Assembly: GCA_027492485.1 (NCBI GenBank)
Contig: JAPUER010000009.1
Location: 51,508-115,507 of the forward strand
Direction: 5' to 3'
Length of the DNA stretch: 64,000 bases
Origin: Betaproteobacteria bacterium
Lineage (GTDB): Bacteria > Pseudomonadota > Gammaproteobacteria > Burkholderiales > Casimicrobiaceae
Made by a program: the position numbers and the translations under genes. Of the stretch, positions 4,916 to 62,023 are shown piece after piece (positions within the stretch are counted from its first letter, which is position 1; each line of letters opens with the position of its first letter). The notes beneath the pieces were generated by a model. That model ran no database searches. It was not told the DNA's origin and was given only the letters and a program-made list of their open reading frames with translations.

Positions 4916-5030
4916 AGCTTTTTGGCTGGCGCGCTTATTAATCAATGGTGTCGTGCGTTTTTTTCTAGAAGTCGACTTTTTTGATTTTCGGCATCTAGCC
5001 CATATTTAACTATCGTTTCAGCGAAAAGCT
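4916..5030. repeat. dispersed 115-bp palindromic element, copy 1
   Basis: One of seven related elements in this window. Ends are AGCTTTTTGGC on the left and GCGAAAAGCT on the right, which are inverted copies of each other. The centre is AAGTCGACTT, with GTCGAC at 4971-4976; the midpoint of the element is 4973. It fills the gap between mlaF and the stop codon of rsmI (5032-5034), its right end lying 1 bp from that stop. As both genes are leftward, the element may end up in the rsmI transcript as a long hairpin. Confidence 0.85.
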
Positions 5031-5031
5031 G

Positions 5032-5961
5032 CTAGCGGGATTTCAGCGTTTCCGCCAGCGCGTAAAGCGCGTCGCGATCCTCGCCGCTGAGCCGGGCGGC
5101 CAGTTTGACGGCGCGGGCCGGCGGCAGTTCCGGCAGCAGCGCCTTGAGCAGCGTGCGCCCGTCGATGCCCGCGCTGCGCACGGCTTGCGCGGCGCCGGCG
5201 ACGACGACAACGAACTCGCCGCGCAGCCGCGTCGCGTTGCCGTGCAGCCAGTCGCCGATTTCGCCGGCGGTCAGCGCCGACACCGTTTCGAACTTCTTGG
5301 TCAGTTCGCGGCCAATGACGACGCGGCGATCGGCCGCCAGCCCGGCGGCCAGCGCCGCGAGCGTTTTCTCGATGCGGTGCGGTGACTCGAAGAAAACGCT
5401 GGTTTCGGTGCGCGCCGCGATCGCCTCGACAAACGCCGTCAGTTCGCCCTTCGCCGTCGGCGCAAAACCGATGAAGGTGAACGCCGTCGATTCCAGTCCG
5501 GCCACCGACAGCGCCGCCGTCACCGCGCTGACGCCGGGAATCGGAATTGTCGGAAACCCGGCGGCGCGAACGCTGGCGACCAGCCGCGCGCCGGGGTCCG
5601 AGATCGCCGGCGTACCGGCATCGCTGACGTAGGCCACCGCGTCGCCGGCGGCGATGCGCGCAACCACGCCGGACGCGGCCTCCCGCTCGTTGTGTTCGCG
5701 CACCGAGACGAGCGCCGGCGCCGCGATGCCGAGCAGGCGCAGCAGCTCGCGCGTCATCCGCGTGTCCTCGCAGGCAATGCAGGCGACGCCCGCCAGCACG
5801 CGCTGCGCGCGCAAAGTGATGTCGCCGAGATTCCCCAGCGGCGTCGCCACTACATACAATCCCGCCTGCAAGGCCTCCAGCGGCGACTGTTTCCGCCCGC
5901 CCGGCTCGCCCGCTTCGTCCCGTCCATCCTGCCCGTCCTGCACTGGCGTCACGCGCCACAC
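5032..5961 (-). CDS. rsmI: 16S rRNA (cytidine1402-2'-O)-methyltransferase RsmI
   Basis: A 309-residue SAM-dependent methyltransferase that 2'-O-methylates C1402 of 16S rRNA. It shows the tetrapyrrole-methylase-like fold signatures of RsmI: LYVVATPLGNLGDITLRA, CEDTRMTRELL, AYVSDAGTPAISDPGARLV and FESPHRIEKTL. About 33 residues precede the usual start of the fold and are unlike the family; a later start is possible, but there is no nearby ATG. It is divergent from the lpoA-like gene with 22 bp between the chosen starts, the same arrangement as rsmI and lpoA in E. coli. Confidence 0.93.
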   Translation of the reverse strand: MWRVTPVQDGQDGRDEAGEPGGRKQSPLEALQAGLYVVATPLGNLGDITLRAQRVLAGVACIACEDTRMTRELLRLLGIAAPALVSVREHNEREAASGVVARIAAGDAVAYVSDAGTPAISDPGARLVASVRAAGFPTIPIPGVSAVTAALSVAGLESTAFTFIGFAPTAKGELTAFVEAIAARTETSVFFESPHRIEKTLAALAAGLAADRRVVIGRELTKKFETVSALTAGEIGDWLHGNATRLRGEFVVVVAGAAQAVRSAGIDGRTLLKALLPELPPARAVKLAARLSGEDRDALYALAETLKSR

Positions 5962-5983
5962 TCCTCTCTCTGCACCCTGATCG

Positions 5984-7219
5984 ATGTCTGCCCGAATCCA
6001 CCCGTCGACACTGCCGCCACCTGGCCCGCCGGATCGCCGGCGGCCGCGCCGCCGCTACCTGACGGCGGCCGCGCTGGCCGGCGCGACCCTCGCGTTGACC
6101 GCCGCGGCGCAAACGGCGTCGCCCGCGCCCAACGCGGTGCAACCCAATCCGGCCGCCGCGACAAACCAGGCACCTGCCATTTTGGCGCAACCACCTGCGA
6201 AGGACGGGGCGGCGACCGCTGGCGCCACGGCAAGCGCCGCGCCGCCCGCGAGCAACCTGCTGCGCGTCGTGCTGCTGCTGCCGACCGAGCAGCCGCTGCT
6301 GCGTCGCGCCGCCGGCAGCGTGCGCGACGGTGCGCTCGCGGTGCTGGGCAGTCGCAAACGGGAGGTGGCGGTGATCGACTGTCCCTATGCGGTCGACGCC
6401 GTGGTCGCGAGCTACAGCCGCTGTGTCGACGACAGCGTGGATTGGGTGATCGGTCCGCTGAGCCGCGCCGATGTCGCCGCGCTTGCCGCGGCGCGGCTGC
6501 CGGCGTTGCGCCCCACGCTGATGCTGTCGCCGCTCGGCGCGGCACCGGCGGCGCCAATGGCCGTGCTGGCGCCGGACCTGGAATCGGAGGCGGAGGCCAT
6601 CGTCCAGCAGGCCGGCGAAGACGCCTGCCGCAAACCGCTGGTGGTCGAAGCCGCCGGGCCGATCGCCAATCGGGTGGCGGTCGCGATGAACACCGCGTGG
6701 CGCGAGCGCAACGCCATCGCCATCCAGCAAACGCGGCTAGGCAGCCGTGAAAGCTGGCGCAAGGCGGCCGACGGCTGGCGGCGCGAGCACGTCGATTGCG
6801 TCCTGTTCGCCGGTGGCGGCGCCGCGCTCACCGAACTCCGCCCCTATCTGCGCGACATCGCGGTCTACGCCACCAGCGCTGCCTACGAAAGCTCGCTCGA
6901 CCGCACGATGGACTGGACCGGCGTGCGCGTGGCCGACGCGCCGTGGCTGATCGACGCCGATCGCGCCGAATTTGCCGGCCTGGCGCCAGCCCCGGCCGCC
7001 GGCGCAGCGTTCGATGCGGCGGCCGTTTCGCCGACGCTGGCACGCCTCTACGCGCTGGGGTTGGACGCGGCGCGACTGGCACTGGCCGCCGGGCGCGACG
7101 CCCTGCCCGCTTCGTTCGACGGCGCGATCGGCCGGCTGACGCTCAAGGAGGGCCAGTATCGCCGGATGCCGATGGTGGGCGAGTTCCGCGAACGCAGTCT
7201 GGTCAAAATCGGGCCCTGA
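5984..7219 (+). CDS. LppC/LpoA-like periplasmic protein
   Basis: A 411-residue exported protein in the position of lpoA (divergent from rsmI, upstream of yraN). LpoA activates penicillin-binding protein 1A. The N terminus has an RRRYLTAAALAG signal sequence resembling a twin-arginine or Sec signal, followed by an Ala/Pro-rich linker to about residue 85. The rest resembles a periplasmic-binding-protein fold (VVLLLPTEQPLLRRAAGSVRDG; later DRTMDWTGVRVADAPWLI). No lipobox cysteine is visible, unlike E. coli LpoA, and the N-terminal TPR-like half of LpoA is missing. The homology is inferred mainly from context and the C-terminal fold. Confidence 0.65.
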   Translation: MSARIHPSTLPPPGPPDRRRPRRRYLTAAALAGATLALTAAAQTASPAPNAVQPNPAAATNQAPAILAQPPAKDGAATAGATASAAPPASNLLRVVLLLPTEQPLLRRAAGSVRDGALAVLGSRKREVAVIDCPYAVDAVVASYSRCVDDSVDWVIGPLSRADVAALAAARLPALRPTLMLSPLGAAPAAPMAVLAPDLESEAEAIVQQAGEDACRKPLVVEAAGPIANRVAVAMNTAWRERNAIAIQQTRLGSRESWRKAADGWRREHVDCVLFAGGGAALTELRPYLRDIAVYATSAAYESSLDRTMDWTGVRVADAPWLIDADRAEFAGLAPAPAAGAAFDAAAVSPTLARLYALGLDAARLALAAGRDALPASFDGAIGRLTLKEGQYRRMPMVGEFRERSLVKIGP

Positions 7220-18053: not shown

Positions 18054-18168
18054 AACTTTTCGCCTCAAGCGCCACTGCATATTGGCGTAAACGTGAAATG
18101 CCGCGAAGTCGACTTTCGATAAAAATGCGCACTGAACCAAGCAGCAACGCGCATAAATCGGAAAAGCT
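18054..18168. repeat. dispersed 115-bp palindromic element, copy 2
   Basis: Left end AACTTTTCGCC (one base off the AGCTTTT consensus), right end GGAAAAGCT, centre AAGTCGACTT with GTCGAC at 18108-18113; the element midpoint is 18111. It lies 100 bp upstream of the M36 protease start, so on the minus strand it may sit in that gene's leader or promoter region. Confidence 0.8.
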
Positions 18169-24481: not shown

Positions 24482-24595
24482 AGCTTTTCGCCTTGATGCG
24501 CGGTTGAATGGGCATCAAGGTCGATTTTCGCCTTTGTCGACTTCAGCGATATTTTGCCGCAAGCCTATATCCAATAGCGCTTTCAGCAAAAAGCT
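24482..24595. repeat. dispersed 114-bp palindromic element, copy 3
   Basis: Left AGCTTTTCGCC, right CAGCAAAAAGCT, centre GTCGAC at 24536-24541, exactly at the element midpoint. It takes up a third of the 306-bp gap between the TPM gene and the antitoxin gene; the rest of the gap holds the operator-like site below and nothing else that I can see. Confidence 0.85.
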
Positions 24596-24699: not shown

Positions 24700-24936
24700 A
24701 TGCGCACGCTAGGCATCCGCGAAGTCCGCCAACGCTACGAAATCCTCAAGGAAACGCTCGACGCCGAGGGCGAGGTGATCCTGACCCATCACGGCAAGCC
24801 GTTTGCGCGCGTGCTGCCGATCGAGCCGGCCAAGCCGCGCAAGCGCTGGAAGCCGCACCCGGAGCTGGCCGACATCCCGTTCCAGCAGGTGCCGAGCGAG
24901 GTGTACATCGCTGAGGAACGCGAGCGTGACATTTGA
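24700..24936 (+). CDS. Phd/YefM-type antitoxin
   Basis: A 78-residue antitoxin. The N terminus GIREVRQRYEILKETLDAEG and EVILTHHGKPFARVLPIEP matches the DNA-binding half of Phd/YefM/VapB proteins. The C terminus, which would wrap the toxin, is basic and short. The stop overlaps the start of the PIN toxin by 4 bp. Confidence 0.82.
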   Translation: MRTLGIREVRQRYEILKETLDAEGEVILTHHGKPFARVLPIEPAKPRKRWKPHPELADIPFQQVPSEVYIAEERERDI

Positions 24937-33695: not shown

Positions 33696-33811
33696 AGCTT
33701 TTTACTGTAACGCGCAGTCGAATGGGGCTTTGACGCGTATATGTGCGTAACTCGACTACTGGCGAAACATGCGTTCTAGCCGCATTCCACTGACGTTTTA
33801 GCCAGAAAGCT
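33696..33811. repeat. dispersed 116-bp palindromic element, copy 4
   Basis: Left AGCTTTTTACTG, right GCCAGAAAGCT, centre CTCGAC at 33751-33756, exactly at the midpoint. It lies in the 480-bp gap before the giant surface-protein gene; that gap also holds the methyltransferase remnant and a terminator, and no gene. Closest relative in the window is the copy at 42.2 kb. Confidence 0.85.
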
Positions 33812-33963: not shown

Positions 33964-36900
33964 TTATTGCTGCGAGCGCCCCCGTTGGCGCCGCATCGCG
34001 GCGAGGCCGACCAGCACGAGCATCAGTACCAGCAGGTTACGCATGTTTTCCGCGAGCGTCGGGACAGCCGCGGCCGGATAGAAACCGGCGTCCAATTGCG
34101 GGTTGTTGTCGCCCGCCGCGACCGTGACCGTCTGGCTACGGCCAACTCGCGCGTCGCGTGCCGGTTGGCTGTCGTTGGTGTCCGGTCCGGTGCCGGTGGT
34201 GATCGAGGGCGTACCCGGTACCGTCGTCAGCCAGGCTCCGTCGGGCAGGAAAGTGACGTAGTAGCTGCCCGGGATCAGGTTGTCGAACTGGTAGAAGCCC
34301 GGGGCGTTGCCGGTCGGGTTGTTGCGGGTCAACTGGCGTGCGACTTCGGTGCCATTGCCATCGTAGAGGATGACTGACACGTTGTTGAGCCCCACTTCGC
34401 CCGGATCGGCACGACCGTTATGGTTGCTGTCGTTCCAGACGAAGTTGCCGAGCTTGGCGGGCAGGAAAACACCAAACTCCGCGGTGAGCACATCGAATGC
34501 GTCTCCATTCGGGCCATTCGCACCAGCGCCCGTCGCGCCGGCATCGGCGTCCCCGGTGACGATATTGCCGGGGCCGACAACAATCACACCGGTACGGATC
34601 GTGGTCGGCGTGGTTTGCGTCCCGTGATCGCGACCGTTGGTTGCCGCGCCGCTGCCGGCGAGGCCAGGCTCGTAGGGGCCAGTGGCACTGCCATTCGTTC
34701 CCGTTGAACTGACGTAGTCGACACCGTTGACCGCGCCGGGGACGATTTCGACGATGTAGTTACCCGCAGGTAGGCCGTCGAAGCGGTAGTAGCCGTTGCT
34801 GTCGGTCGTCTGGTTGGCGACGCCCGGTACCGGGTTGCCATTGGCGTCAAGCAAACGCACGGTGACATTGGCAAGGCCGAGCTCGCCACTGTCCATGACG
34901 CCGTTGTTGTTGGCGTCCACCCAGACGCGGTTACCGAGGCTGTAGCCCGGCGCGAAGCCGAAGTCCAGGTTCGGCTGGTTGGTGGTGCCGGTGGCGTTGT
35001 TGGCGACGCTGTTGGCGCCGGCGCTGGTGCCAGCGCCCAGCGTGAAGCTGGCGCTGCTGGTGACACCCGCACTGGCGGCGGCGATGCCGACACCGCTGTC
35101 GTCATTGGCCGCACCCAGAGGCGTGGTTTCGCTGGCACCACTGGCGGCGGAGCTCGCGAGATTGATCAGCGCCGTATTGACCGTGGCGGTAGCTTGCGGG
35201 ATGCGCACCTGATAGGCGTTACCTGGCACGAGCGGCAGACCGTTGGCCACGCCGTTGGCGTCGGTGCCTTGGTTGAAGGTGTAAACGCCGCCGGCGCCGG
35301 TAGTGGTAACGGCGACGAGGGTTGCGCCGTTGTAGAGCTCGACGCGCACCCCCGGGATACCTTGTTCGCCAGCGTCGAACACACCGTTGTTGATGTTGGC
35401 AGGCGTGGCGGCATTGTTGCCGTCGTCTTTCCACACCGCAGCGCTGACGCTGAGGCGGTAGAAGCCGAGATCGAGCGTGGTGTCCGACTGGTTGTCCGGG
35501 TAGGACGGGGCGCCGCTCGGCAGCGCGCCGTCGGCTTCCGCCGTCGGGGCGCCGGTGCCGGCGAAGGTACGCGTGGCGGAAAGGATGCCGCCGGCGGTGC
35601 CGGAGCTGCCTGCCACCGGCGAGGTGCCAACGCCGTTGTCGGCATTGTTACCCGCACCGTCGGGGCTGCTGAGGTAGCCCGCAAGCGGGCCGCCTGCCGC
35701 AAACTGGTTGCCGGGCACGCGCACCGCGTAGGTGCCCGCGGGCAGATCGTTGAAGACGTAGAGACCTGCGCCGTCAGTGACCGTGGACATCAGCGTGCCG
35801 GCAGAGTTGGTGCTGACGCTGCCGTCGGCTTGACGGTAGAGGGCAGCGCCGGTGCCGTCGGTAAGCACGACGGTAACGCCGCTGGGGCCGCTGGTTTCCG
35901 CAGCGTCGCGGGTGCCGTTGCCGCTGGTGTCGAAGAACAGGCGGTTGCCGAGCTGGTAACGACGCTCAAGCGTGTTGGTGAAGCTTTCTGCCTGCGCTGC
36001 CGGTGCGCCGGTGAGGCCGACGGTGATCGACTTGGTGGCCGGCAGCGCGCTGGTCCAGACGAAGCCGGTCGGGGCAGCCGGACGCGCGATTTCGTTCAAC
36101 GTGCAGGTGGCACCGATCTGTACGTTGGCGAACGTGAGCGGCGTGGATGCCGCCACTTGCGCAGCGGTCAGGTCTTGCTGCGCGTAGCTGGCAGGCCCCG
36201 AGCTACAGGCGGTGAGCGTGAACGAGTAGGTGCCGGTGGCCGGCGCACCATCGGTGGCGCCGGCGATCACCTTGGTCACGGTGACCGAGCGCGTGTCGGG
36301 CTCCATCACATTGGTGAAGGTGACGACGTTCGGGTCCGGTGCATTGGTGGTGGTGAAGGAGGCACTGAGCGGCGAACTGGCGGCCCAGCGGTAGCCGGAC
36401 GGCGCGGCCGGACGAGTAGTTTCGGTCAGCGTGCAACTGGCGCCGACGCTCACGTTGGTGATCGTTTGCGATTGACCGGCGGTGAGGTTGAAGGTGGTCG
36501 GGCTGGGCGACTCCGTACCACAGGCGATCGAGAAGGCGTAAGTGGCAGTGAAGCCCGCCGGCGCGCCGGTCACTTGTTTGGTGATGGAGATGTCGCGTGC
36601 CGAGCGCGTGACAGTGTTGGTGAAGGCATACGCCGGGGTGCTGGAACCGACGGTTTGTGTGATCGGTGCCGGCGTTGCGCCCCAGCTGAAGGCGGCCGGC
36701 GTCAGCGTCGGCAGCGGTGTCAGTTCGGTGACGGTGCAGGAGGCGCCGTCGACGACGTTAGTGATGCCGAGCGGCGTGCCGGCCGCCACCGCAAAGCTGG
36801 CTGCGGTCCCGTTCGCGGGCGTCGGCGTGAGGCCGTTGTTGGCGGTACAGCTAATCGAGAAGTTGAAGGCGTTGGTGTACGTCGGCGACGGCGGCGGGGT

Positions 36901-39900
36901 AGCCGGCAGCGTCACTGCCTTGGTCACCGATATCGTACGCAGTGCTATCTCGCCGAAGTCGTAGCCGGTGGCCGCTTGCCCAACCGTCAGTTCGATGGCG
37001 CTGATGGTGTCGTTGGCCGCAGTTACGGTGCCGGGGGTGGCGCCGTTACCCGCCTTGTCGCCGGTGGTGACGTAGCCCGACGGTTGCGTTTCCACGACGG
37101 AGTAATCGTTACCGGCCAACAGGTCGCAGAAGAGGTATTGACCAACGGCCAGCCCCGTTGCCGGCACCGGGCAGACACCGGGGCCGTAGGTGGCGGTACC
37201 GGCGCCGGTGGCGGGGTTGTAGTACTGGCCGGCAGGGATGGCGGCGGAAGCCGTACGCGCCACGCCGACCGGGGTGCTGCCTTTTTGCAGGGTGACGGTA
37301 ACGCCGCCCAAGCCGGTGTCGGTGCCCGGCTCATAGCCCGCTGCCGCGCCGTTCAAGTTCGGATCGACAAACACGGTGCCCTGGATCGAGGCCGCCACCT
37401 TGCGGGTGGTGACGTCGTTGGTGAGTTGATAGAACTCGACCGTCGTATTCGATACGAACGCGTTGTTCGAGTAACGGTCGCCGGCACGGTTGCCCGCAGT
37501 GGTGAAATCCATGACGAACTGTCGAGACGGATCGGCGGGCGCCATCGAATTGGCATCGCGCACGAGGATGGCGGTGGTGCCGGCCGGGAAGCCGCTCCAG
37601 ATTGTTGCGGCCTGCGTCGCGAGCGTCCAGTTGGGCGTGCCGCCCGAACAGCCGGAACCGGTGCCCACTGCGCCTGTCCAGGCGCCGACCGGTGCCGCCA
37701 GATTGGATGGACATTTTGGATCGTCATCGATGGCCGAGACTGCCGCGGTGCTGTAGTAAACGTAGTAGCCAGTGGCCGACGGCACAGTCACCTGCGTCAG
37801 AGGGCGCGTACCGCTGAAACGCGATTGGTCGTTGACCGCGGACGGGTCACCGCGCAAATCATTGTTGTAGGGCAGCTTGTCGATGGCGCGGTTTTCCGTC
37901 ACCGGGTTTGAACCTGCATTTTTGTAGCGCACCGCCATCTGGAATGGCGTCAGTATCTGATCGACTGCAGGGGTTACCGTTTTCGTGGCGATCAGCGCAC
38001 CTGACGTACCCAGAATGACGCTGCGATCGGCGGAGCGCTCGGCCAACGCCTGGAACGCATTGAAGTCGTTACAGGTGATCGCCCCTGCCGCCGACACGGT
38101 CGCGCCCGGCGCGCAGGCGCGTACCTGCGTGACGTTCTTGAGAACAGTGTTGGGCGTATTGGCCGGATTATCGAGATCAACCTGAGCATCGAATTCGATC
38201 ACCGGCAATTTCACCTGTGTCAAGCCGGAGGCAAGTTGATTTGGAATCAACCAAGTCACGGTCGTCTGCCCCGTCGCTGGAGAGTTGGCAACAATCGCAG
38301 CCGGCGTCACCGGCGTACCGCCAATCGTGGCGTTACCCAAATAAAGCATGCCATTGGGCAGCGTGTCGACCACGATCACGTCGCCGGTGATCGGCGCGGA
38401 GGGGGCATAGACGTTCAGCGTCGGCCACAACTGGAAGCGATGGGTGCGGCCCAACTTCGACGATTCGGCCGTCGGCGTGACCAAGGGCCCGTCGACCGGG
38501 TCGACACCTTTCAGACCCTTGCGGATCTTGGGCTCCATGGTGGTCAAACGCAGGCGGCGCCCCGGATTTTCCGCTCCACAATACTTGAGCGGATCTGGCT
38601 CCGGCGTCGCCGTGCAAGACGTCGTGAACACGGCTTGCGGATCGGTGCCGGGGTGGTAGTACGGCGTGACCCAGACGTCATGCTGATAATTGTTCGGCTG
38701 GTTTGTGCCGGTCCACTTGATGGAGCCCCAGTTCGGGATGATTGTTCCGATCGGCCATACCGTCGGGCCGCCAAAGGGGTTGCCTGCCAGCACCTGCAAG
38801 TGCGGGTTGATCGATGCGTAAACCCCCGGCGGCAAGGTGATGTCGCGGAAACGCACCGCGTTGATGTACGGCGCCCACGATGGGTTCGTCTTCAACTGCG
38901 CGTGGGTAATCCACGGCGCTGTCGGGCCCACGCCAAGCGTGCCCAGGATCGAATCGCTATCCTCGCACCCAGAAGCCGACAAGCTGTCGTCGGTGAAGCT
39001 GGCGCCACCGACGCGACCGAATTCGTAATCGCTTCCCGCCGGGAATGTCGATAACGTGCTGTAAGGATAGGAATGCGCGAAACCGACCGCAAGCGGAGCC
39101 AGCGAGTTGTTCGGGCCCGCGTAGTAAGCCGCGTTGCCGTTGGGCGAATAGACCGGCCCGGTGCCGGCGTGCGTTTTGACGGTAGCGGGGTCAACGGTAA
39201 TCAAGCCCAGCTTGCGGTTATCCCATTTGTCGCAAAGGGAGGCTGTCACCGGCAGGGCGCCGGTGTTGCCGGCGACGACGAATGAATCCAGTTTGTCGCC
39301 GGGGCCAATCCAGTCGTTGGTCAGGTAGGGATAGTCCCCCCCGTTTGTCACCGTGGTCGCAAATGTTTGCGATGTCTGCTGGTAGTACTTACCGAAGTCC
39401 CCTCTCCCGAGAACGATGGGGCCCCACGCCGCCTGATTGGTCACGTTAGCTGGCGACAAATTGGTTGCGCAGTAATCCGGCTCCACGGTGTCCGCGTCCG
39501 CCGCCGACAACGGGCAACTCGGCAGCGTGCCCACCGTCCCGCCGAAATTGGAAACCCCGGAAACGCTTACCGGGTCGAAATCGCGCAGCATGTTTTTGCC
39601 GGCGACCGATCCTCCGTTGTCCTGAATCGCTGCAACCGGCACCCATACGCGCGCCCAGCCGCCGATAACCGTGTTGGTGTTGGCGCCGACCGAGAATGGG
39701 TAGGTGCCGGACGTGTCGGCGTTAGTGACGGTGATGGTGGCAGCGCCGGAAACACCATTGACCACCGGCGCGGTCTGCGTCCAGCTCCAGGTGCCGTTGA
39801 AATCGGCCGCCGCGCCCGCCGCAATTGCGGCGCTGGTGTCGCCGGGAATCATGCGACTGAGTGGATAGATGTCGGCAATGCAGGAGCCGGTCGGGAAGCC

Positions 39901-40731
39901 GCTCAGGTCGTCGGTGAAGGTGATCGTGTTGCCGAGTCGCTCATGTCCCTTTAGCTGCGTCGCGTTGCCGCCAATGCGAAATGCCACCAGAACGCCTTGG
40001 GCGCCAACCGTGCCGGCGCACAAGGGCGAGCCCGACTTGACGTCGTTGACCGCAGCATTGTTGGCCGTGAAGGTGCTATAGGTCGGTCGCAGGATGCCGA
40101 AATAAGTGCTGTACAGAAGCTTGTACGCGTCCACGCGCGGCTGCGCGATGACCGTCACCCCGAGCGCGGTATCCGACTTGACGCCGCCCGCAGTGGCGGG
40201 AGAGTCTTCGTCGTTATTCAGGTTGAACGTGACGTCGGCAAACGAGCTTCCGTTTTGCGCGGTTTTGTCGGTGGTTACATCGAAGTCGAGCGCGCCGGAC
40301 ACCAGTCCCGAGGTCGCGACCACGCAGGTCAGGCTCTTGCCATCCGCAGAGATACGGCTGGCGGCTGAATTGAGGCAGGAGCCCATGCCGGGGGCATTTT
40401 TCGACCAGCGGAAATCTGCGGGCAGTGGCCCGGCCGTAATGGTCAGATTAGTGCTTGGCGCCGGGCCGATCGCCTGATACTGCACGCGGTAACGGGCGAT
40501 GTCGTTGGTGCAGATTTGATTATTGTTCTGACCGCCAAGCCCACCATCCAACGGACAGGAGCCGTCGCCATCGATGAGCGGCGGTGAGGGGGTCGTCCCC
40601 GGCGTGCCGACATTGATGTTCAGGCTGGCGGCGTGTGCCGCCGTCGCAGCAAAACCCAGCGCCGCCACGGCAGCGACGGCAACGGGGAGCACGGAGCTGC
40701 GAACGCGCAGCACCAATGACCGGATGTTCAT
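33964..40731 (-). CDS. giant exported surface protein with DUF11-like, DUF5979-like and SdrD B-like repeats and an IPTL-CTERM-like end
   Basis: A 2255-residue protein. A signal peptide (VAVAAVAALGFAATAAHA, about 15-35) precedes a mature N terminus. Residues up to about 1110 hold DUF11-like beta-sandwich regions (DTLPNGMLYLGNATIGG). At about 1114-1275 is an SdrD B-like domain with GYDFGEI. At about 1275-1590 are three DUF5979-like repeats (SVTKAVTLP, DISITKQVTGAP, SVTVTKVIAGA, each followed by CTVTE/CTLTE/CTLNE). At about 1592-2180 are four more SdrD B-like repeats (LGNRLFFDTSGNGTRDAAE; LGNRVWVDANNNGVMDSGE). The C-terminal VPTLAENMRNLLVLM, hydrophobic helix and RRQRGR resemble the IPTL-CTERM sorting signal. 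The ATG at 40731 fits the signal peptide. Confidence 0.88.
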   Translation of the reverse strand: MNIRSLVLRVRSSVLPVAVAAVAALGFAATAAHAASLNINVGTPGTTPSPPLIDGDGSCPLDGGLGGQNNNQICTNDIARYRVQYQAIGPAPSTNLTITAGPLPADFRWSKNAPGMGSCLNSAASRISADGKSLTCVVATSGLVSGALDFDVTTDKTAQNGSSFADVTFNLNNDEDSPATAGGVKSDTALGVTVIAQPRVDAYKLLYSTYFGILRPTYSTFTANNAAVNDVKSGSPLCAGTVGAQGVLVAFRIGGNATQLKGHERLGNTITFTDDLSGFPTGSCIADIYPLSRMIPGDTSAAIAAGAAADFNGTWSWTQTAPVVNGVSGAATITVTNADTSGTYPFSVGANTNTVIGGWARVWVPVAAIQDNGGSVAGKNMLRDFDPVSVSGVSNFGGTVGTLPSCPLSAADADTVEPDYCATNLSPANVTNQAAWGPIVLGRGDFGKYYQQTSQTFATTVTNGGDYPYLTNDWIGPGDKLDSFVVAGNTGALPVTASLCDKWDNRKLGLITVDPATVKTHAGTGPVYSPNGNAAYYAGPNNSLAPLAVGFAHSYPYSTLSTFPAGSDYEFGRVGGASFTDDSLSASGCEDSDSILGTLGVGPTAPWITHAQLKTNPSWAPYINAVRFRDITLPPGVYASINPHLQVLAGNPFGGPTVWPIGTIIPNWGSIKWTGTNQPNNYQHDVWVTPYYHPGTDPQAVFTTSCTATPEPDPLKYCGAENPGRRLRLTTMEPKIRKGLKGVDPVDGPLVTPTAESSKLGRTHRFQLWPTLNVYAPSAPITGDVIVVDTLPNGMLYLGNATIGGTPVTPAAIVANSPATGQTTVTWLIPNQLASGLTQVKLPVIEFDAQVDLDNPANTPNTVLKNVTQVRACAPGATVSAAGAITCNDFNAFQALAERSADRSVILGTSGALIATKTVTPAVDQILTPFQMAVRYKNAGSNPVTENRAIDKLPYNNDLRGDPSAVNDQSRFSGTRPLTQVTVPSATGYYVYYSTAAVSAIDDDPKCPSNLAAPVGAWTGAVGTGSGCSGGTPNWTLATQAATIWSGFPAGTTAILVRDANSMAPADPSRQFVMDFTTAGNRAGDRYSNNAFVSNTTVEFYQLTNDVTTRKVAASIQGTVFVDPNLNGAAAGYEPGTDTGLGGVTVTLQKGSTPVGVARTASAAIPAGQYYNPATGAGTATYGPGVCPVPATGLAVGQYLFCDLLAGNDYSVVETQPSGYVTTGDKAGNGATPGTVTAANDTISAIELTVGQAATGYDFGEIALRTISVTKAVTLPATPPPSPTYTNAFNFSISCTANNGLTPTPANGTAASFAVAAGTPLGITNVVDGASCTVTELTPLPTLTPAAFSWGATPAPITQTVGSSTPAYAFTNTVTRSARDISITKQVTGAPAGFTATYAFSIACGTESPSPTTFNLTAGQSQTITNVSVGASCTLTETTRPAAPSGYRWAASSPLSASFTTTNAPDPNVVTFTNVMEPDTRSVTVTKVIAGATDGAPATGTYSFTLTACSSGPASYAQQDLTAAQVAASTPLTFANVQIGATCTLNEIARPAAPTGFVWTSALPATKSITVGLTGAPAAQAESFTNTLERRYQLGNRLFFDTSGNGTRDAAETSGPSGVTVVLTDGTGAALYRQADGSVSTNSAGTLMSTVTDGAGLYVFNDLPAGTYAVRVPGNQFAAGGPLAGYLSSPDGAGNNADNGVGTSPVAGSSGTAGGILSATRTFAGTGAPTAEADGALPSGAPSYPDNQSDTTLDLGFYRLSVSAAVWKDDGNNAATPANINNGVFDAGEQGIPGVRVELYNGATLVAVTTTGAGGVYTFNQGTDANGVANGLPLVPGNAYQVRIPQATATVNTALINLASSAASGASETTPLGAANDDSGVGIAAASAGVTSSASFTLGAGTSAGANSVANNATGTTNQPNLDFGFAPGYSLGNRVWVDANNNGVMDSGELGLANVTVRLLDANGNPVPGVANQTTDSNGYYRFDGLPAGNYIVEIVPGAVNGVDYVSSTGTNGSATGPYEPGLAGSGAATNGRDHGTQTTPTTIRTGVIVVGPGNIVTGDADAGATGAGANGPNGDAFDVLTAEFGVFLPAKLGNFVWNDSNHNGRADPGEVGLNNVSVILYDGNGTEVARQLTRNNPTGNAPGFYQFDNLIPGSYYVTFLPDGAWLTTVPGTPSITTGTGPDTNDSQPARDARVGRSQTVTVAAGDNNPQLDAGFYPAAAVPTLAENMRNLLVLMLVLVGLAAMRRQRGRSQQ

Positions 40732-42174: not shown

Positions 42175-42290
42175 ATCTTTTTACTGAAATGCGCATCCAG
42201 ATAGGGCTACGACGCGTTATTCTTTACAACTCGACTATAAGCAAAATATGACTTCTTGCCCAATTGGAATGGGCCTTTCGCCAAAAAGCT
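42175..42290. repeat. dispersed 116-bp palindromic element, copy 5
   Basis: Left ATCTTTTTACTG (one base off AGCTTTT), right CGCCAAAAAGCT, centre CTCGAC at 42230-42235, exactly at the midpoint. The right end lies 17 bp from the hutF stop codon. Confidence 0.85.
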
Positions 42291-54678: not shown

Positions 54679-54793
54679 AGCTTTTGGCGAAGAACCCAAT
54701 AACAATTGGCCAGAATCCACAAATTTTATAAAGTCGACTTCAATAGATTCGAGCCTCTGTTCCCCATAGAAAAGCCGTTCTACGCGTAAAGCT
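54679..54793. repeat. dispersed 115-bp palindromic element, copy 6
   Basis: Left AGCTTTTGGCGAAG, right CGCGTAAAGCT, centre AAGTCGACTT with GTCGAC at 54733-54738 (midpoint 54736). It lies in the 510-bp gap between the FHA-EAL gene and the second giant gene. The rest of that gap has only the hairpin below. Confidence 0.82.
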
Positions 54794-55079: not shown

Positions 55080-58000
55080 TTAGCCGCGTGTCCGGTTTCG
55101 TCGATAGGCGCCGGCTGCCGCGCAAACCAACAGAACGGACAGCAGCAACAACAACCGCGCATCGATCACAGGCACCGCCTGTGTCGGCAAACCGAGGATC
55201 GTAATAGGCTTCGTTGCCGTATCGCATGCCTGGTCTTGCGGCGCGGCGAGTCCGGTAGCGGTGCATATTTGGTACGTCACGGTGTAGGTGCCCGGTGGCG
55301 TATTGTTCGGGACGACCAAGCTTCCCGTGGCGTCAATGCTCGCTCCGGTAATGCCGCCGTTGTTTTGCAGCGTGACCGCGACTTGTCCAGCTGCGGTGCC
55401 GACCGTCGGATTGCTGGTGGTGCCCAGCTGATCGTTGCCCAGCAGCGGGTAGCTGGTACTGCCTGTGGCGCTGTACTGCTGCGTGGCCGGCGCGTCATTG
55501 ACCGCGTCAATCACCGGTCTGCTCAGGACAACCTGGTTGTTGCCACCCGTTCCGATGCCGCCATTGCTGTCGTTGACAGCGCCGGTTGTGCCTACCAAGG
55601 CCACCGTTTGTGTCGGGCTGTCGACGCCGCCCGCCATATCCGGCGCCTTGTAGCTGAACGTGCACGCAATGCTGTTGTTGGGCGCCGTTGCGCCAACCGT
55701 CGCCGGTGCGCTCGGTGTGCAGTTGACGGCGCTTACCGTTGCGCCAGTGGTGGTGGTGCTTGGCACGCAGCTGCCCGCCACTGCGGCGCCGGGTCCATTG
55801 TTGGTGCATGTCAGCGTCAGCCCGGTGTAGGACGCCCCCGGTGCCACCGCTGCCGGAATGTTGCTGAAAGTCGGCACCATGTCGGCACTTTGCTCGGCAA
55901 AATTGTTGCCCGTGCTGCCCGCTGCCGGTACCGTCAACGTGATCGTGCTGTTACTGGAGCTGCCGGCCGTGCCGCCGGAGTCGCTCGTGCCGCCCGTGCC
56001 CGGCGTGTTGTAGGCGTTGGTGTAGCCTGCAGGTTGCGTCTCAGTGATCGTGCAGTTCGCCCCTGCCGGTACGTTGGAGAACGTGTAGCTGCCGTCGGCG
56101 GCGGTGTTCATCGGAGTCATACCCGTGTACGCCGGTGTGCAGCTGATCGCCACCTGCGTCACGAGGCCCGGATCGTTTGCGTTGCCGTTGTCCGTCGTGT
56201 TGGCCGGGTTGCTGGCTTCGACATAGACGCGACCCGACACCGTGGTGGCGCCAATTTCTCCGAAATCGTAACCGGTGGCGCTGGCGTTCGTCCCCAACGT
56301 GATGTTGGTTATCGATTCGGTCGCACCACCAAGGGCGCCAACCGTCCCGCCGGCGCTACCCGCCTTGTTACCCGTGGTCACGTAGCCACTGGGCTGTGTC
56401 TCGACGACACTGTACGTCCCCGGCGGCAGGTCACAGAAATAGTAGCCACCAACCGCTATCTCCATGCCAACCGGTACGATGCATTGCACCGTGGTGCTAC
56501 CCACCACGTTGGGGAAGGTGAGTACGCCGTTGCCCGTGATTTGCGTCGCCGAGGTCACCGCAGTGGCGGCCTTGCCGCCGCTGATCGCGACGGCGACACC
56601 CGGCAGGCCGACATCCTCTGCGGAGAGATAACCCGTCACGCCGCCGTTGGCGTTTGCATCGCGGAACACCGTGCCGGCAATCGAGGTCAGGAAAACGCGC
56701 ACCGTGGTGGGGTTGGACAGCGCCGGGAGTGCGATGCCTTGCCCTTTGGCACCGGTCACGTTGGTGTACAGGTTGCCCGAGGTGTTGCCGGAGCTCGTCA
56801 TGTTCAGCGTCAGCGTTCGGCTGGTGTTCGACGGCAGCGACGCGCCGTCGATGAACCGCACTGCAGTGGCTTGCGCGAGCGTGAAACCGCATGTGCCTGC
56901 CGGCCCCGCAACGGTACCCGCGCACCACGTTGCGTTGGGCAAGGCATTGGCATTGACGCCCGAGGTGGGATCCGAGCTCAGGGTTGCCGGCGCTGCATTC
57001 GAGAAGTACCAGGTCGCCGTCACGGTCGAGGCCGCCACGCCGGCCAGCGCCGATGTGCCCGCGAACGCCGATGGTGGCGTGCGCGATGGATCGTTCGAAT
57101 CGCCATTGAAAGGCAGGATGTCGATGATGTCCATCCCGGCGATCGGGCTGGTTGTCGCGTTAAGGTAGGTCACCGTGTACTGAAACGCGCCGTTGGTTGG
57201 CACCTGCGGCGTGGAGGTCGTTTTCGACACGCTCAATTCCTGGGGCACGGTCACCGTGAGTGTTTTCGCGCCGGTACGGTCGGCGAGTGTCGACGCATCG
57301 CTTGGCGATGAGGCCACCGCCACATTGAGCAAGCTCGATCCGTTGGCGGGCAAGGCATTCGTTCTGGCCTGATACTTGACCTGCGGCACGGCAACCGCGG
57401 TGTTCTGCACTCCGAGATTCCAGGTCAACAGCGTCTGGCCGGCTGCGGTGCAGCGTGCGTCCGGCGTCGCAGCGCCCGTGCAGGGGATGATCGTCGGCTC
57501 GGTCGGTGTGTTGCCGACCGCCGCGCTGCCCGCAACGTAGTCAAGCCCAAGCGGCAAGAGGTCGTACACCGCCACCACATCGGTAATGGTCGGCAAACCG
57601 CTGACGGGAGCCACGAGTGTCGGCGTCAGAACGAAATTGGCAACGCCGTTGGGCGCCGCTATCGAGGTCTGCGACGTCGGGTTGGTGTCCTTGGTCATGC
57701 GCACAACCGCATTCGCGAAGCGGACAACGCCGGTTCCGCCCCAGGCCCTCGTGTACGCCGCGGCGTCGGCCACCGGGTCGAACGCCCCGGCCGAATAGCT
57801 GGTTGCGCTGCCGGTTCTGTCAAACACTGCCTGATTCGGCAACAACGTCCCCGTCGTCAGCCCCGGCGCCGGGGTGTACGTAAAGTAAAAAACCGGGAAG
57901 TACCCCGCCGGCACACCGCCCGTGGTGGCGCGAATACGCAGCTTGGTGACTGCGGCCATGCCGCCCGGCACGGCCGTCGGATCGGCGTACCATCCCGTGG

Positions 58001-59723
58001 CCGCATTGCACTCGGCGTTGGTCGCCGTCACCGCCGGGTAACTGGCGGGTGGCCACGACCCCGAAGTCGCCGCTCCGTACTCCACAACAAACGTGGGCGA
58101 GGGCGTAGGCAAGATGCCGTACTCCTGGAAAAAATAGTGCGGATGCGCTGCCTGCGCAAACGGATTGGTGGTGAGTTGCGTCTTGCTGTTGTCCCAGATG
58201 TCGCAAACCGACACCTGACCGGCCGTAAACGGCTGCGTCCCCGAGTTGCCCATGACGATGCGCGACGAAAGTTGCCCACCCGCACTCACCACGCCCTTGG
58301 TATCGATCACTGTCACCGCGCCCGGCAGCGGGACGGCAGCGTTCGCCGACTTCGTCCAGTACTTGTCGAAGTAACCCTGAGACGCCGGAATCGAGGACGA
58401 CACCGAATCGTCAGCCGTGTTCTGGTTGAAGTTCGCCTGCCCGGAAAGAGAGGTCCAGTTCGTCGGCTGTGCCGTGTTCGTGTATGGGATGGTGCCGGCA
58501 GGGCCGGGGGCCGGAAATGCTGCCGGATCGAGGTCGACATACAGCACCGCAGCAAGCGCGACTTTGGCGTCCACGTACGGCACGGCGAGCGGCGAATTGG
58601 CGCCAAACGTCGGCCAGCGATCCAGCGTTGTGTTGGCGTTGGCAAAATTGATCACGATATTGCTGCCGGCACCGCCCGGCTGCGTGCATGTCAAATGGCC
58701 GTCGCTAATCACGCTGCGCGAGTCGGTCGACGAGCCGGTGATCGTCCAGTTCGTCGTACTACCACTCACCGTCGCGCCGCCTCCGACCCCGCCATTTGGT
58801 GTTCCGTTGGCGCCTTGGGGGCTGCAGTCAAACAGCGTCGGATTGCCCGGCAGCCCGGAGGTGATGTCGGTCACCGTCACCGAGCTGTTCAGCGCCTCCG
58901 CACCCACCTCCGGCGCAAGCCCCGTTGGCAGCGACGTGACGCCCAGCGCGGCATTGGGTTGAATGCCCACGACGATCGAAAAGCTTTGTCGCCATACCGT
59001 CTGGTTGGACGCGTTCTTGACCAGACCCGGCGTCGCGGTGGTGTACTTCGCCAGATCGAAGCGCGGAGCGGCCGTGACCGCGACCGCAGACGGATTGCTC
59101 ACCGTCGAAGCGGTGCAGCCTGACGACGCCGGCAGCACGCTCATGGTCGGCGCCATGACAGCACCGTTGGCATTGCTCCCGCTGACCTTGAAGTCAGCCG
59201 TGAATGTCACCGACGCCGTCGAGACGACGTTCGCAACCACACATTGAAAACCGCTGCCATCGAGCGTCAAGGCCGACTGGGTCGCGCCCGGCGCGTTCGT
59301 TGCGGTCACCGGATTCTGGCAGGTGCCGGGTAGCGAAAATTGCCCGGTGCCCGCCGGCAGCTTCACGACAATGACCGGTTGCGCGGGCCCGGCAATCACG
59401 TTGTAGTTGATGCCGTAGCGAATCGTGTCGTGCGTGCGCACCACGCCGTTAAGCACGCCGCCGTTGGCGACGTCGCCCACCGCCCCATCGCACCCCGGCG
59501 CCGAGAGCGGGCTACACAAATTCACGCCATTCAATTTGTCACTTGCGGTGTTGGCCGGCAACAACCCGTCGGCAACGACTGAACCGACGAGATTGCACTG
59601 TGCGGCGAACACGCTGGCGGACAGCGTCACCAGCACAACACTGGCAATTGCGCTCCGTAGCAAATGGCCTGGCGACGGCGCGGCAGTGGCGTATTCGACT
59701 CGAGAGTAGATGCGGGAGGACAT
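55080..59723 (-). CDS. second giant exported surface protein, related to the one at 34-40.7 kb
   Basis: A 1547-residue protein. The signal sequence (SAIASVVLVTLSASVFA) ends near residue 41. A long DUF11-like beta-rich body (DVVAVYDLLPLGLDYVAGSA) reaches about residue 1000. An SdrD B-like domain follows at about 1011-1165 (TVFRDANANGG; VETQPSGYVTTG; GYDFGEI), then a second (VYVEASNPANTTDNG; CTITETQPAGYTN), then DUF11-like repeats. The C terminus has AVPVIDAR, a hydrophobic helix and YRRNRTRG, like a CTERM sorting signal. The segment SGYVTTG...GYDFGEI is shared with the other giant protein. Confidence 0.85.
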   Translation of the reverse strand: MSSRIYSRVEYATAAPSPGHLLRSAIASVVLVTLSASVFAAQCNLVGSVVADGLLPANTASDKLNGVNLCSPLSAPGCDGAVGDVANGGVLNGVVRTHDTIRYGINYNVIAGPAQPVIVVKLPAGTGQFSLPGTCQNPVTATNAPGATQSALTLDGSGFQCVVANVVSTASVTFTADFKVSGSNANGAVMAPTMSVLPASSGCTASTVSNPSAVAVTAAPRFDLAKYTTATPGLVKNASNQTVWRQSFSIVVGIQPNAALGVTSLPTGLAPEVGAEALNSSVTVTDITSGLPGNPTLFDCSPQGANGTPNGGVGGGATVSGSTTNWTITGSSTDSRSVISDGHLTCTQPGGAGSNIVINFANANTTLDRWPTFGANSPLAVPYVDAKVALAAVLYVDLDPAAFPAPGPAGTIPYTNTAQPTNWTSLSGQANFNQNTADDSVSSSIPASQGYFDKYWTKSANAAVPLPGAVTVIDTKGVVSAGGQLSSRIVMGNSGTQPFTAGQVSVCDIWDNSKTQLTTNPFAQAAHPHYFFQEYGILPTPSPTFVVEYGAATSGSWPPASYPAVTATNAECNAATGWYADPTAVPGGMAAVTKLRIRATTGGVPAGYFPVFYFTYTPAPGLTTGTLLPNQAVFDRTGSATSYSAGAFDPVADAAAYTRAWGGTGVVRFANAVVRMTKDTNPTSQTSIAAPNGVANFVLTPTLVAPVSGLPTITDVVAVYDLLPLGLDYVAGSAAVGNTPTEPTIIPCTGAATPDARCTAAGQTLLTWNLGVQNTAVAVPQVKYQARTNALPANGSSLLNVAVASSPSDASTLADRTGAKTLTVTVPQELSVSKTTSTPQVPTNGAFQYTVTYLNATTSPIAGMDIIDILPFNGDSNDPSRTPPSAFAGTSALAGVAASTVTATWYFSNAAPATLSSDPTSGVNANALPNATWCAGTVAGPAGTCGFTLAQATAVRFIDGASLPSNTSRTLTLNMTSSGNTSGNLYTNVTGAKGQGIALPALSNPTTVRVFLTSIAGTVFRDANANGGVTGYLSAEDVGLPGVAVAISGGKAATAVTSATQITGNGVLTFPNVVGSTTVQCIVPVGMEIAVGGYYFCDLPPGTYSVVETQPSGYVTTGNKAGSAGGTVGALGGATESITNITLGTNASATGYDFGEIGATTVSGRVYVEASNPANTTDNGNANDPGLVTQVAISCTPAYTGMTPMNTAADGSYTFSNVPAGANCTITETQPAGYTNAYNTPGTGGTSDSGGTAGSSSNSTITLTVPAAGSTGNNFAEQSADMVPTFSNIPAAVAPGASYTGLTLTCTNNGPGAAVAGSCVPSTTTTGATVSAVNCTPSAPATVGATAPNNSIACTFSYKAPDMAGGVDSPTQTVALVGTTGAVNDSNGGIGTGGNNQVVLSRPVIDAVNDAPATQQYSATGSTSYPLLGNDQLGTTSNPTVGTAAGQVAVTLQNNGGITGASIDATGSLVVPNNTPPGTYTVTYQICTATGLAAPQDQACDTATKPITILGLPTQAVPVIDARLLLLLSVLLVCAAAGAYRRNRTRG

Positions 59724-59835
59724 AACGGTTGCGTATTGCCTTGATGAATCTGAATTGAAAACGGAAGGAACTGTCCGCGGCGTTAATCCAACATTTCATG
59801 CGGCAATTAGCATGACAGGGGAATGAATGCTGAGA

Positions 59836-59866: not shown

Positions 59867-60112
59867 TGTTGCACATTTACAACAAGCGCTGTCGACCTGC
59901 GCCGCTACCCGGAACTTATCCGCAAATGGATTAGCTATCCATCCGAATCGCATGTAGTGCCATGTGGATCGAGACCGCGACGAAGCCCGTTGAATCGTGG
60001 GTGGTAGCGGATGAATTCCGGCAATCGGCGCGACCGCTGATCCCGCGCCGCACGGCCGCGGGCAAGGTCAATGCGCCCAGCCACCGGCGCCGCTGGCCGA
60101 TCGGGTTTGCGC

Positions 60113-61783
60113 TTAGCGTCCGCCAGCCGGCGTACCCGCGATGGCCGTGGCGACAGCTTCGGCAACGCGAATGCCGTCGATGCCCGCCGACATGATGCCG
60201 CCGGCATAGCCTGCGCCTTCGCCCGCCGGGTAGAGGCCGGCCACGTTCAGGCTTTGCAAGTCGTCGTCGCGCCGCTTGATGCGAACCGGCGAGCTGGTGC
60301 GCGTTTCCACGGCGGTGAGCACGGCGTCGGCCATGAAGAAGCCGGGGATCTGCTTGTCGAACGCGGGTAGCGCCTCGCGCATCGCTGCCACCGCATAGTC
60401 GGGCAGCGCGGTCGCCAGGTCGGTCAGTTGCACGCCGGGCTTGAAGCTCGGCTCGACGCTGCCGAACGCCGTCGACGGCCGGCCGGCGACGAAATCGCCG
60501 ACCAGTTGCGCCGGCGCGTTGTAGTTGCCGCCACCGAGTTCGAACGCGCGGCTTTCCCAGTGCCGCTGGAAATCGATGCCGCCGAGCGGATGTTGCATGT
60601 CGGCCGGGAAGTCGACGGGCTCGATGCCGACCACAATGCCGGCGTTGGCGTTGCGCTCATTGCGCGAATACTGGCTCATGCCGTTGGTGACGACGCGGCC
60701 CGCTTCCGACGTCGCCGCGACCACGGTGCCGCCCGGACACATGCAGAAGCTGTAGACCGAGCGACCGTTGCTGGCGTGATGCACCAGCTTGTAGTCGGCG
60801 GCGCCCAGGATCGCGTTGCCGGCATTCGGGCCGAAGCGCGCGCGGTCGATCAGGCCCTGCGGATGCTCGATGCGGAAACCGATCGAGAACGGTTTCGGCT
60901 CGAGATAGACGCCGCGTTGGTGCAGCATCGCGAAGGTGTCGCGTGCGCTGTGGCCGATGGCGAGGATCACCTGATCGGCAGGCAGCGTTTCTCCGTTGTC
61001 GAGCAGCACGCCGCGAATGCGCTTGCTGCGTGCGGCATCGCCCTCGCCGCGACAATCTTCCAGCAGCAGATCGACCACGCGATTTTGAAAGCGGAATTCA
61101 CCGCCGAGCGCTTCGATCGTCGCCCGCATGTGCTCGACCATCTTCACCAGCCGGAACGTGCCGATGTGCGGCTTGCTGACGTAGAGGATTTCCGCCGGTG
61201 CGCCGGCCTTGACGAATTCTTCCAGCACCTTGCGGCCGTAGTGCTTCGGGTCTTTCACCTGCGTCCACAGCTTGCCGTCGCTGAAGGTGCCGGCGCCGCC
61301 TTCGCCGAACTGCACGTTGGATTCGGTGTTCAGTTCGCGCCGCCGCCAGAAGCCCCAGGTGTCCTGCGTGCGTTCGCGCACCACCTTGCCGCGTTCGAGG
61401 ATGATCGGCTTGAGACCCATCTGCGCCAGGATCAGCGCCGCGAGGATGCCGCAGGGGCCGCAGCCGATCACCACCGGACGCGGCGTGCCGGCGGCGAACG
61501 AACCCGGCGCGGCGACGTATCGGTACCTGGTGTCGGGCGTCGCCGCGATGTGGACGTCGCGCCGGAAACGCTTGCGCAGTGCGGCTTCCAGCGCGCCGGG
61601 CAACTCCACATCGACGGTGTAGACGAGCTGGATGTCGGCCTTCTTGCGCGAGTCGTAACCACGGCGGAAAACGAGATGGCGGATCAGCTCCCCTGGTTTG
61701 ATGCCGAGGCGGGCGACGATGGCGGCGGGCAGTGCTGCCTCGTCGTGATCGAGCGGCAGCTTGAGTTCGGTGATGCGCAGCAT
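60113..61783 (-). CDS. FAD-dependent dehydrogenase of the COG2509 type
   Basis: A 556-residue flavoprotein. About 95 N-terminal residues form the family-specific domain (IKPGELIRHLVFRRGYDSRKK). The dinucleotide site is VVIGCGPCGILAALILAQMG with ILERG at the end. Typical blocks follow: NVQFGEGGAGTFSDGKLWTQ, LAIGHSARDTF, SFCMCPGGTVVAA and a C-terminal YPAGEGAGYAGGI. The substrate is unknown for the family. Single gene; the 230 bp upstream hold palindromic element copy 7. Confidence 0.87.
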   Translation of the reverse strand: MLRITELKLPLDHDEAALPAAIVARLGIKPGELIRHLVFRRGYDSRKKADIQLVYTVDVELPGALEAALRKRFRRDVHIAATPDTRYRYVAAPGSFAAGTPRPVVIGCGPCGILAALILAQMGLKPIILERGKVVRERTQDTWGFWRRRELNTESNVQFGEGGAGTFSDGKLWTQVKDPKHYGRKVLEEFVKAGAPAEILYVSKPHIGTFRLVKMVEHMRATIEALGGEFRFQNRVVDLLLEDCRGEGDAARSKRIRGVLLDNGETLPADQVILAIGHSARDTFAMLHQRGVYLEPKPFSIGFRIEHPQGLIDRARFGPNAGNAILGAADYKLVHHASNGRSVYSFCMCPGGTVVAATSEAGRVVTNGMSQYSRNERNANAGIVVGIEPVDFPADMQHPLGGIDFQRHWESRAFELGGGNYNAPAQLVGDFVAGRPSTAFGSVEPSFKPGVQLTDLATALPDYAVAAMREALPAFDKQIPGFFMADAVLTAVETRTSSPVRIKRRDDDLQSLNVAGLYPAGEGAGYAGGIMSAGIDGIRVAEAVATAIAGTPAGGR

Positions 61784-61907
61784 CGTGCACTCCGTTGGGC
61801 GGAAAGTTAGTCCGCAATGGCTGGATGCTAGCGACCCCGGGCGTTAGCGCATGGGCCAATCGCGGCTGGCGACGCAAATTGCCGCACGGACGTCGCCGAG
61901 CAGATAC

Positions 61908-62023
61908 AGCTTTTCGATGAAAGCCTCATTCGCACTAGGCGTTGCGGCCAATTTTTTCATTTCTCGACTATTTGTATTTTGTAGATCTTTGCCCAATGCG
62001 AAAGCCACTTTCAGCAAAAAGCT
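61908..62023. repeat. dispersed 116-bp palindromic element, copy 7
   Basis: Left AGCTTTTCGATGAAAG, right CAGCAAAAAGCT, centre CTCGAC at 61963-61968, exactly at the midpoint. Its right end overlaps the stop codon of the winged-helix/TPR gene (62022-62024) by 2 bp, so the element supplies part of the stop codon. Confidence 0.88.

Follow-up and report, generated by a model that had tools for sequence, protein, structure and literature searches.

A 64,000-nt stretch of contig JAPUER010000009.1 from a Casimicrobiaceae genome (the whole of which is here called the window, and to which coordinates refer unless a contig or locus is named) contains seven copies of a dyad-symmetric element of 114-116 bp. 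These belong to one family, evidently under selection, in which length and centre are fixed and the copies lie between genes. Elements of this type recur within the genus; they consist of two inverted half-sites with hardly any sign of pairing between them, retain their chromosomal places between genomes, are evenly spaced, occur preferentially between convergent genes, and carry arm motifs that differ between lineages at the same sites. We consider it probable, on balance, that they are platforms of some kind serving the topology of the chromosome or the nucleoid. In the mechanism proposed, each element would be a docking site of ~121 bp on double-stranded DNA, its two half-sites turned towards a centre that most often reads TCGA; a symmetric protein complex would sit on this site and bend or wrap it. 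Such sites, in their hundreds and set near-evenly apart (~11-12 kb in three genomes, ~5 kb in a fourth, G007) with a preference for the gaps between convergent genes, would organise the chromosome, their likeliest role being that of topological anchors or of places where supercoils are handled.

Anatomy of the elements and pairing between their halves

The original prediction, made from the window alone, described seven palindromic intergenic elements with inverted ends. All seven were recovered at their places (Table 1), with the midpoint of the central TCGA no more than 0.5 bp from the exact middle in every copy. Scanning the window for AGCTTTT and AAAAGCT, each with at most one mismatch and 108-124 bp apart, returned exactly these seven, and a sequence-only profile of 20 copies, the seven included, found the same places on searching both strands and nothing further up to E=10. 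The inverted ends stand, with four copies having one end a single base off (the left end at 18054 and 42175, the right at 33811 and 54793). The description as palindromic holds only in part: each copy has two half-sites that fit the consensus, but there is no single long stem, and without gaps a copy is only 33-57% self-complementary. With a simple hexamer gene caller, all seven fall between genes, save that the final 2 bases of element 7 belong to the TAG stop codon of the adjoining TPR-protein gene on the minus strand. Rfam, at its gathering thresholds, gave no matches across the whole window.

The anatomy of the half-site was determined from 74 elements (63 from the source genome, G000, and 11 from other genomes) and from 33 elements of its relative G005. 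The set of 74 also underlay the nhmmer profile, the information content, and the first left-right, pairing-scan and chimera tests; the key tests were repeated on the 63 source-genome elements only, with unchanged outcome. Reading inwards, with distances counted from the centre, the half-site has an end box WWCAGCTTTT; an AAA at ~44 bp; an arm at ~33 bp, carrying a short palindrome (GCCCATT..AATGGGC-like in G000 and G005); at ~12 bp, a patch of A and T only, in which the two bases interchange, AA alternating with TT and TA being uncommon (also among the 63); and a centre half AAGTC, joined by GAC across the centre. The length is 114-116 bp in 60 of the 63 G000 elements and all 33 from G005, under an extraction favouring 115 bp; free of this bias, 1.26 Mb of the two genomes contains 16 pairs of exact AGCTTTT...AAAAGCT ends at lengths of 80-199 bp, 15 of them 114-116 bp. 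The element spans ~121 bp. Its 129 model columns together hold 85 bits of information, which is an upper estimate, as both strands of related copies are counted.

The arms are lineage specific, being ACGACC..GGTCGT-like in G012 and GCCCAATT.AATTGGGC-like in G007, where the centre is weaker. Elements with the same ends and length around other centres were seen by eye at G002:C12:283440-283555 and G007:C6:17240-17355 and among the matches in G011 and G014; in the latter two genomes the centres read as TTTTCGAAAA-like, such that the centre too varies by lineage. A/T profiles correlate across G000, G005, G012 and G007 (r 0.55-0.95, or 0.41-0.89 when columns sharing the same consensus base are left out; flanks 0.04-0.58), and an A/T period of 9.75-10 bp is the top peak in G012 and G007 and the second peak in G000 and G005. 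A profile common to four genomes with this period is what would be expected of wrapped DNA.

The suggestion that selection acts on a long RNA or DNA hairpin was not supported. Were the halves paired as strands, each half should resemble its own partner more closely than it does the halves of other elements, and this is hardly so: left-right identity was 0.473 against 0.458 in G000 (z 1.5), 0.468 against 0.455 in G005 (z 1.4), 0.501 against 0.497 in G012 (z 0.6) and 0.412 against 0.393 in G007 (z 2.5), an excess of 0.4-1.9 points, and 0.497 against 0.493 (z 0.6) in the set of 63. An RNAalifold consensus kept eight outer end pairs when made from 20 copies and none when made from 53. Chimeras of left and right halves fold as well as native elements do, the native mean energy being -33.61 against -33.87 kcal/mol for the 63 elements of G000 and -32.1 against -32.7 kcal/mol for the 33 of G005. 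Compensatory change, the test put forward in the original prediction, is absent or marginal in the left-right and RNAalifold tests. The inverted ends, and folds of -21 to -42 kcal/mol on one or other strand of the seven copies, are what an ERIC-like hairpin, acting on mRNA stability or as a cruciform, has in its favour; on the strength of the half-swap and covariation tests we reject it, according it almost no credence. The preferred reading of the dyad is a pair of half-sites, each of which satisfies one binding consensus. A bidirectional terminator is likewise not favoured, given that copies occur in 34 of 171 divergent gaps and that runs of A, rather than of T, lead outwards.

Distribution, spacing and conservation of place

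Searching the source genome and its relatives for further copies indicated that there are hundreds per genome. The pattern AGCTTTTN{40,50}STCGACN{40,50}AAAGCT has 56 forward and 50 reverse matches in the source genome, compared to none for a reversed control pattern. With the nhmmer profile, G000 gave 43 loci (464 kb searched; 37 of them at least 95 bp long), G005 gave 67 (800 kb; 62), G012 gave 66 (795 kb; 66) and G007 gave 80 (400 kb; 68), which scale to estimates of ~380 copies in G000 (4.12 Mb), ~370 in G005 (a closed genome of 4.47 Mb), ~315 in G012 and ~820 in G007. In the 464 kb of G000, 88-90% of which is coding, a called gene spans the midpoint of none of 36 full copies, and one copy overlaps a called open reading frame (ORF) by 20% of its length. 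A model of 53 copies from the four genomes, with up to 43 candidates scored per genome under stricter filters, was positive in 16 of the 17 genomes of the genus, G016 being the sole negative, and in none of 31 genomes of other genera in the family or 32 of other families in the order. Of 60 relatives, 12, every one within the genus, were matched by the narrower pattern, in which ends and centre must be exact; the single match in G011 resembles chance. When named genomes were scanned with the pattern, 76 of the 96 stretches among the matches listed came from six metagenome-assembled genomes (five titled Burkholderiales and one Pseudomonadota); two more of the listed matches seem genuine, whilst the other 18 are scattered across unrelated taxa and seem due to chance.

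The mean distance between elements is 11.2 kb in G000, 11.8 kb in G005, 12.1 kb in G012 and 4.9 kb in G007. When gaps 100 bp or longer were drawn at random 5000 times, with weights for gap type, the comparison showed these distances to be markedly regular: the normalised coefficient of variation (CV) was 0.55 against 0.86 in G000 (p=0.0006), 0.59 against 0.95 in G005, 0.47 against 0.87 in G012 and 0.51 against 0.87 in G007, with 0 of 5000 draws as regular in each of the last three. The C79 tile of G000 taken alone gave p ~0.01-0.02. Among the 697 gaps that are 125 bp or longer, two copies share a gap just once. Occupancy also depends on the orientation of the flanking genes, with copies in 42 of 92 convergent, 104 of 434 tandem and 34 of 171 divergent gaps (G012 being represented by its first 400 kb); convergent gaps are hence favoured over the rest (42/92 against 138/605, odds ratio 2.84, p=1e-5).

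The elements occupy conserved places. Six of the seven in the window have a counterpart in the syntenic gap of G005. Amongst gaps 100 bp or longer whose neighbours are the same reciprocal-best genes, 13 have an element in both G000 and G005, one in G000 only, none in G005 only and 53 in neither (p=5.5e-13); the corresponding counts are 10, 1, 1 and 34 for G012 and G005 (p=2.9e-8) and 3, 0, 0 and 15 for G012 and G000 (p=1.2e-3). For G007 and G005 they are 1, 3, 0 and 12, from stretches that overlap too little for conservation of that depth to be claimed. Downstream of rsmI, an element, or a relative of it whose centre differs, was seen by eye in 11 of the 16 genomes displayed; G006 is ambiguous, and none was seen in G002, G007, G009 and G016. 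At most of the shared sites displayed, the G012 copies carry their own type of arm. At sites held in common, the motif thus differs throughout a lineage, which suggests a binder acting in trans whose specificity may have changed.

Whilst the places persist, much of the sequence within them does not. Across 19 orthologous G000-G005 pairs, identity is 0.68-1.00 in those columns of the left half and centre that hold CTTT, GGG and TCGA; columns of low information are 0.42-0.48 identical, against 0.38-0.40 in unrelated pairs. The non-coding flanks are near saturation: the 95th percentile for mismatched pairs is exceeded by 10 of 25 flanks and by 6 of 38 element interiors. Fourfold sites are 0.60 identical, against 0.41 expected by composition. 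Hyper-fast turnover of the interiors, suggested by comparison with the fourfold sites, was dropped since the non-coding flanks are near saturation too. The retention of boxes at fixed places in nearly saturated DNA implies that selection is acting on them at present.

Candidate binders, rival explanations and known systems

DNA gyrase would be the best single candidate for the binder, although we regard it as rather unlikely; the main alternative would be a nucleoid protein dedicated to these sites, which would co-evolve with their arm motif. Were the elements strong gyrase sites, the enzyme would cut at the centre with a 4-bp stagger, both arms would be wrapped, and torsion would be managed approximately every 10 kb. 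The gyrase motif of Escherichia coli is described as 130 bp long and symmetric, with a centre and two flanks of G/C periodic at 10.75 bp, and has been likened to nucleosomes (PMC6379681); in the wrapped gyrase site of phage Mu, A/T is described as facing the protein (PMC11626157). As these sites are described (PMC6379681, PMC12393610, PMC11626157), the motif and the strong Mu site are ~120-130 bp long and symmetric, with a central cut region and arms of phased A/T and G/C, to which the present elements, symmetric, spanning ~121 bp and with an A/T phasing of 9.75-10 bp that is the second peak in G000 and G005, may correspond; the elements differ in being discrete repeated units with strongly conserved boxes and variation between lineages. 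The preference for convergent gaps and the tendency of partial copies to end near the centre also favour gyrase. However, the gyrase motif is degenerate, whereas the boxes of the elements hold much information, and an arm motif differing by lineage would not be predicted for a conserved enzyme. We think it possible, though short of probable, that the genus has a chromatin-like positioning system: ~300-800 wrapping nucleoprotein platforms of ~121 bp at near-even intervals, with a binder whose specificity would have changed at least twice, giving three arm motifs, the arms of all sites following whilst the sites remained fixed. A coordinated difference in arm motif at fixed sites would represent a striking co-evolution of a DNA-binding protein with its whole target set. 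Hundreds of sites that are recognisable by sequence, even in spacing and conserved in place would allow the question of what sets the boundaries of topological domains in bacteria to be tested directly in one genus.

The partial copies are open to more than one interpretation. Eleven copies shorter than 95 bp were found in G000 and G005, and none within the first 400 kb of G012; nine of the 11 end no more than 8 model positions from the centre. Two of these nine are the halves of one copy, separated by ~190 bp that include another repeat, a repeat-like insert of ~185 bp with CCTCCCC...GGGGAGG arms (L153:16130-16316; G000 C79:196130-196316), and the G005 counterpart is whole. Such ends fit the centre being either a cut site or a target for insertion.

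A number of observations weigh against reading the elements as protein-bound topological platforms. The left-right excess is not exactly zero, reaching z 2.5, and one alignment of the G000 set has a local excess of pairing within the arm (z 7.2); on re-alignment, this signal fell outside the top three stretches in G000, G005 and G007, and in G012 a stretch within the arm led, at only z 3.0, with 0.39 paired against 0.36 expected. The central TCGA is not universal: an exact copy lies near the middle of 36 of 37 elements in G000, 50 of 61 in G005, 30 of 35 in G012 and 21 of 66 in G007. A period of 7.75 bp outranks that of 10 bp in G000 and G005, and the column-permutation test used ignores local correlation. 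As a class, columns of high information are 0.69 identical in orthologous pairs, against 0.64 in unrelated pairs. The same gene caller gave an overlap of more than 20% with called ORFs for 24 of 80 copies in G007 and 2 of 35 in G012. Regularity of spacing is weaker in single tiles, with a CV of 0.70 against 0.93 in G5b (p=0.038) and p=0.06 and 0.11 in two of the six G012 tiles, and the preference for convergent gaps may merely mirror the avoidance of promoters. The partial copies ending at the centre may be an artefact of local alignments stopping at the informative central box. Finally, any binder is putative, gyrase and a dedicated protein being candidates.

The original prediction also raised the possibility of a non-autonomous mobile unit. 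As a description of present activity this is not supported, given the orthologous places in relatives and the lack of near-identical pairs in the stretches compared. An old family resembling REPINs or miniature inverted-repeat transposable elements, spread by a transposase with target immunity that would account for the spacing, and later fixed and partly domesticated, would explain the high copy number, restriction to one genus, intergenic position and inverted ends, as well as half copies that resemble singlets; nevertheless, we hold it to be improbable. The commonest 16-mer inside the elements has only 3 copies in G000, 3 in G005, 2 in 400 kb of G012 and 2 in G007, and the best long pairs listed (76-124 bp, four genomes) are ~67-76% identical. 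Clean empty sites were found at none of the three places displayed that differ in presence between G000 and G005, one of which was compared closely. The elements sit at conserved places, and the retention of their boxes in nearly saturated sequence requires selection now. Y1 transposase-like genes (PF01797 over the cut-off) are present in 15 of the 17 genomes of the genus, which would suit such an origin, but do not track the elements, as none was found in G009, which has them. PF01797 was likewise not found over the cut-off in G016, the genome with no element match. Presence and absence of these genes across the 17 genomes does not discriminate for or against a RAYT partner. The idea that the elements are operators of a global transcription regulator has typical features in dyad symmetry and conserved boxes, and copies do occur in divergent and tandem gaps; convergent gaps are nonetheless the most occupied class, even spacing would not be expected of a regulon, and the number of sites in each genome is estimated at 300 or more; we hold this reading to be very improbable. 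The topological platform is the reading we prefer.

The matS and parS sites, which are short (~13-16 bp) palindromes confined to one region of the chromosome, resemble the elements as palindromic, genome-distributed sites for a chromosome-organising protein; the elements differ in being ~121 bp long and present in every stretch of the four genomes examined. We know of no described kind of sequence that combines the anatomy seen here with even spacing and a lineage-wide change of motif; should gyrase prove to be the binder, the family would rather be a variant of strong gyrase sites. The family was not described among the literature matches listed, for which titles and the beginnings of abstracts were covered, with most subscription journals lying outside that coverage.

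Other families of intergenic repeats share some of these features. The BIME and REP sequences of E. coli also comprise hundreds of intergenic palindromic elements per genome, and are described as combining REPs of 20-40 bp (PMC3733652) in alternating orientation (PMC2817692); BIME-2 are reported to carry gyrase cleavage sites, and BIMEs have been proposed as barriers between supercoil domains (PMC6379681, PMC6907758). In contrast, the unit found here is a single one of 114-116 bp, almost never present twice in a gap, lacking any pairing constraint, near-evenly spaced and with an arm motif varying by lineage. REPINs are described as having invariant 16-mers, compensatory changes in their hairpin, a random extragenic distribution and a RAYT partner (PMC3116915); inverted half-units, hundreds of copies, intergenic position and half units occurring as singlets are common to both, but neither an abundant invariant 16-mer nor a compensated hairpin was found in the elements. 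The parallel with ERIC drawn in the original prediction is superficial: size, inverted ends and intergenic position are similar, but the elements have no consensus stem or pairing constraint, whereas ERIC, also called IRU, is described as 127 bp long with TA ends, target duplication and structured RNA (PMC2229807), and it is by this description that the two are set apart.

The window elements and their neighbours

Table 1. Elements of the family in the window, with their occurrence in other genomes of the genus.
Element	Position	Length (bp)	Strand	Central TCGA	Occurrence in other genomes
1	4916-5030	115	.	4972-4975	Orthologous copies in G005, G012
2	18054-18168	115	.	18109-18112	Counterpart in G005
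3	24482-24595	114	.	24537-24540	Counterpart in G005
4	33696-33811	116	.	33752-33755	Syntenic G005 region without copy
5	42175-42290	116	.	42231-42234	Counterparts in G005, G012
6	54679-54793	115	.	54734-54737	Counterpart in G005
7	61908-62023	116	.	61964-61967	Counterparts in G005, G012, G006, G013

Element 1 occupies almost the whole of its gap, which runs from the stop codon of an rsmI-like gene on the minus strand at 5032 to the called start, at 4906, of an ABC-transporter gene beside mlaE. The counterparts of element 7 in the four other genomes all lie downstream of the orthologous gene. Immediately to the right of element 3, at 24700-24936 on the plus strand, is a small ORF resembling a Phd/YefM antitoxin, below the Pfam cut-off. 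Two giant surface-like proteins of 2255 and 1518 amino acids, with SdrD_B and DUF5979 domains, are encoded on the minus strand at 33964-40731 and 55080-59636. The syntenic region of G005 contains too little DNA for the gene encoding the 2255-amino acid protein, which neighbours element 4, and element 4 is missing there too.

At L154:6054-6164 (G000 C79:206054), and in G005 at C1 ~1654476-1654600, the right end of an element is fused to a conserved GCCCCGCTCCGGCGGGGC hairpin followed by TTTT; this structure at the end of a merged element is perhaps a terminator. A second intergenic repeat, TGTCATCCTGAGCRAAGCGAAGGATC ... ATGACA, has six exact core copies in G000 (L284:1501-1526, L285, L286, L287, L288 and L289), and the L284 copy extends into an ORF that by eye resembles a GIY-YIG nuclease. 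As an origin of the half copies, the TGTCATCC...ATGACA repeat was rejected, with only two of the six exact core copies (L285 and L288) adjoining a half element. Repeated words unrelated to the elements were also encountered, namely GAGCGGCTTGCCGCGA, with 10 copies in the 464 kb of G000, and GTCATTCACCGCGTCA, with 13 in the 800 kb of G005.

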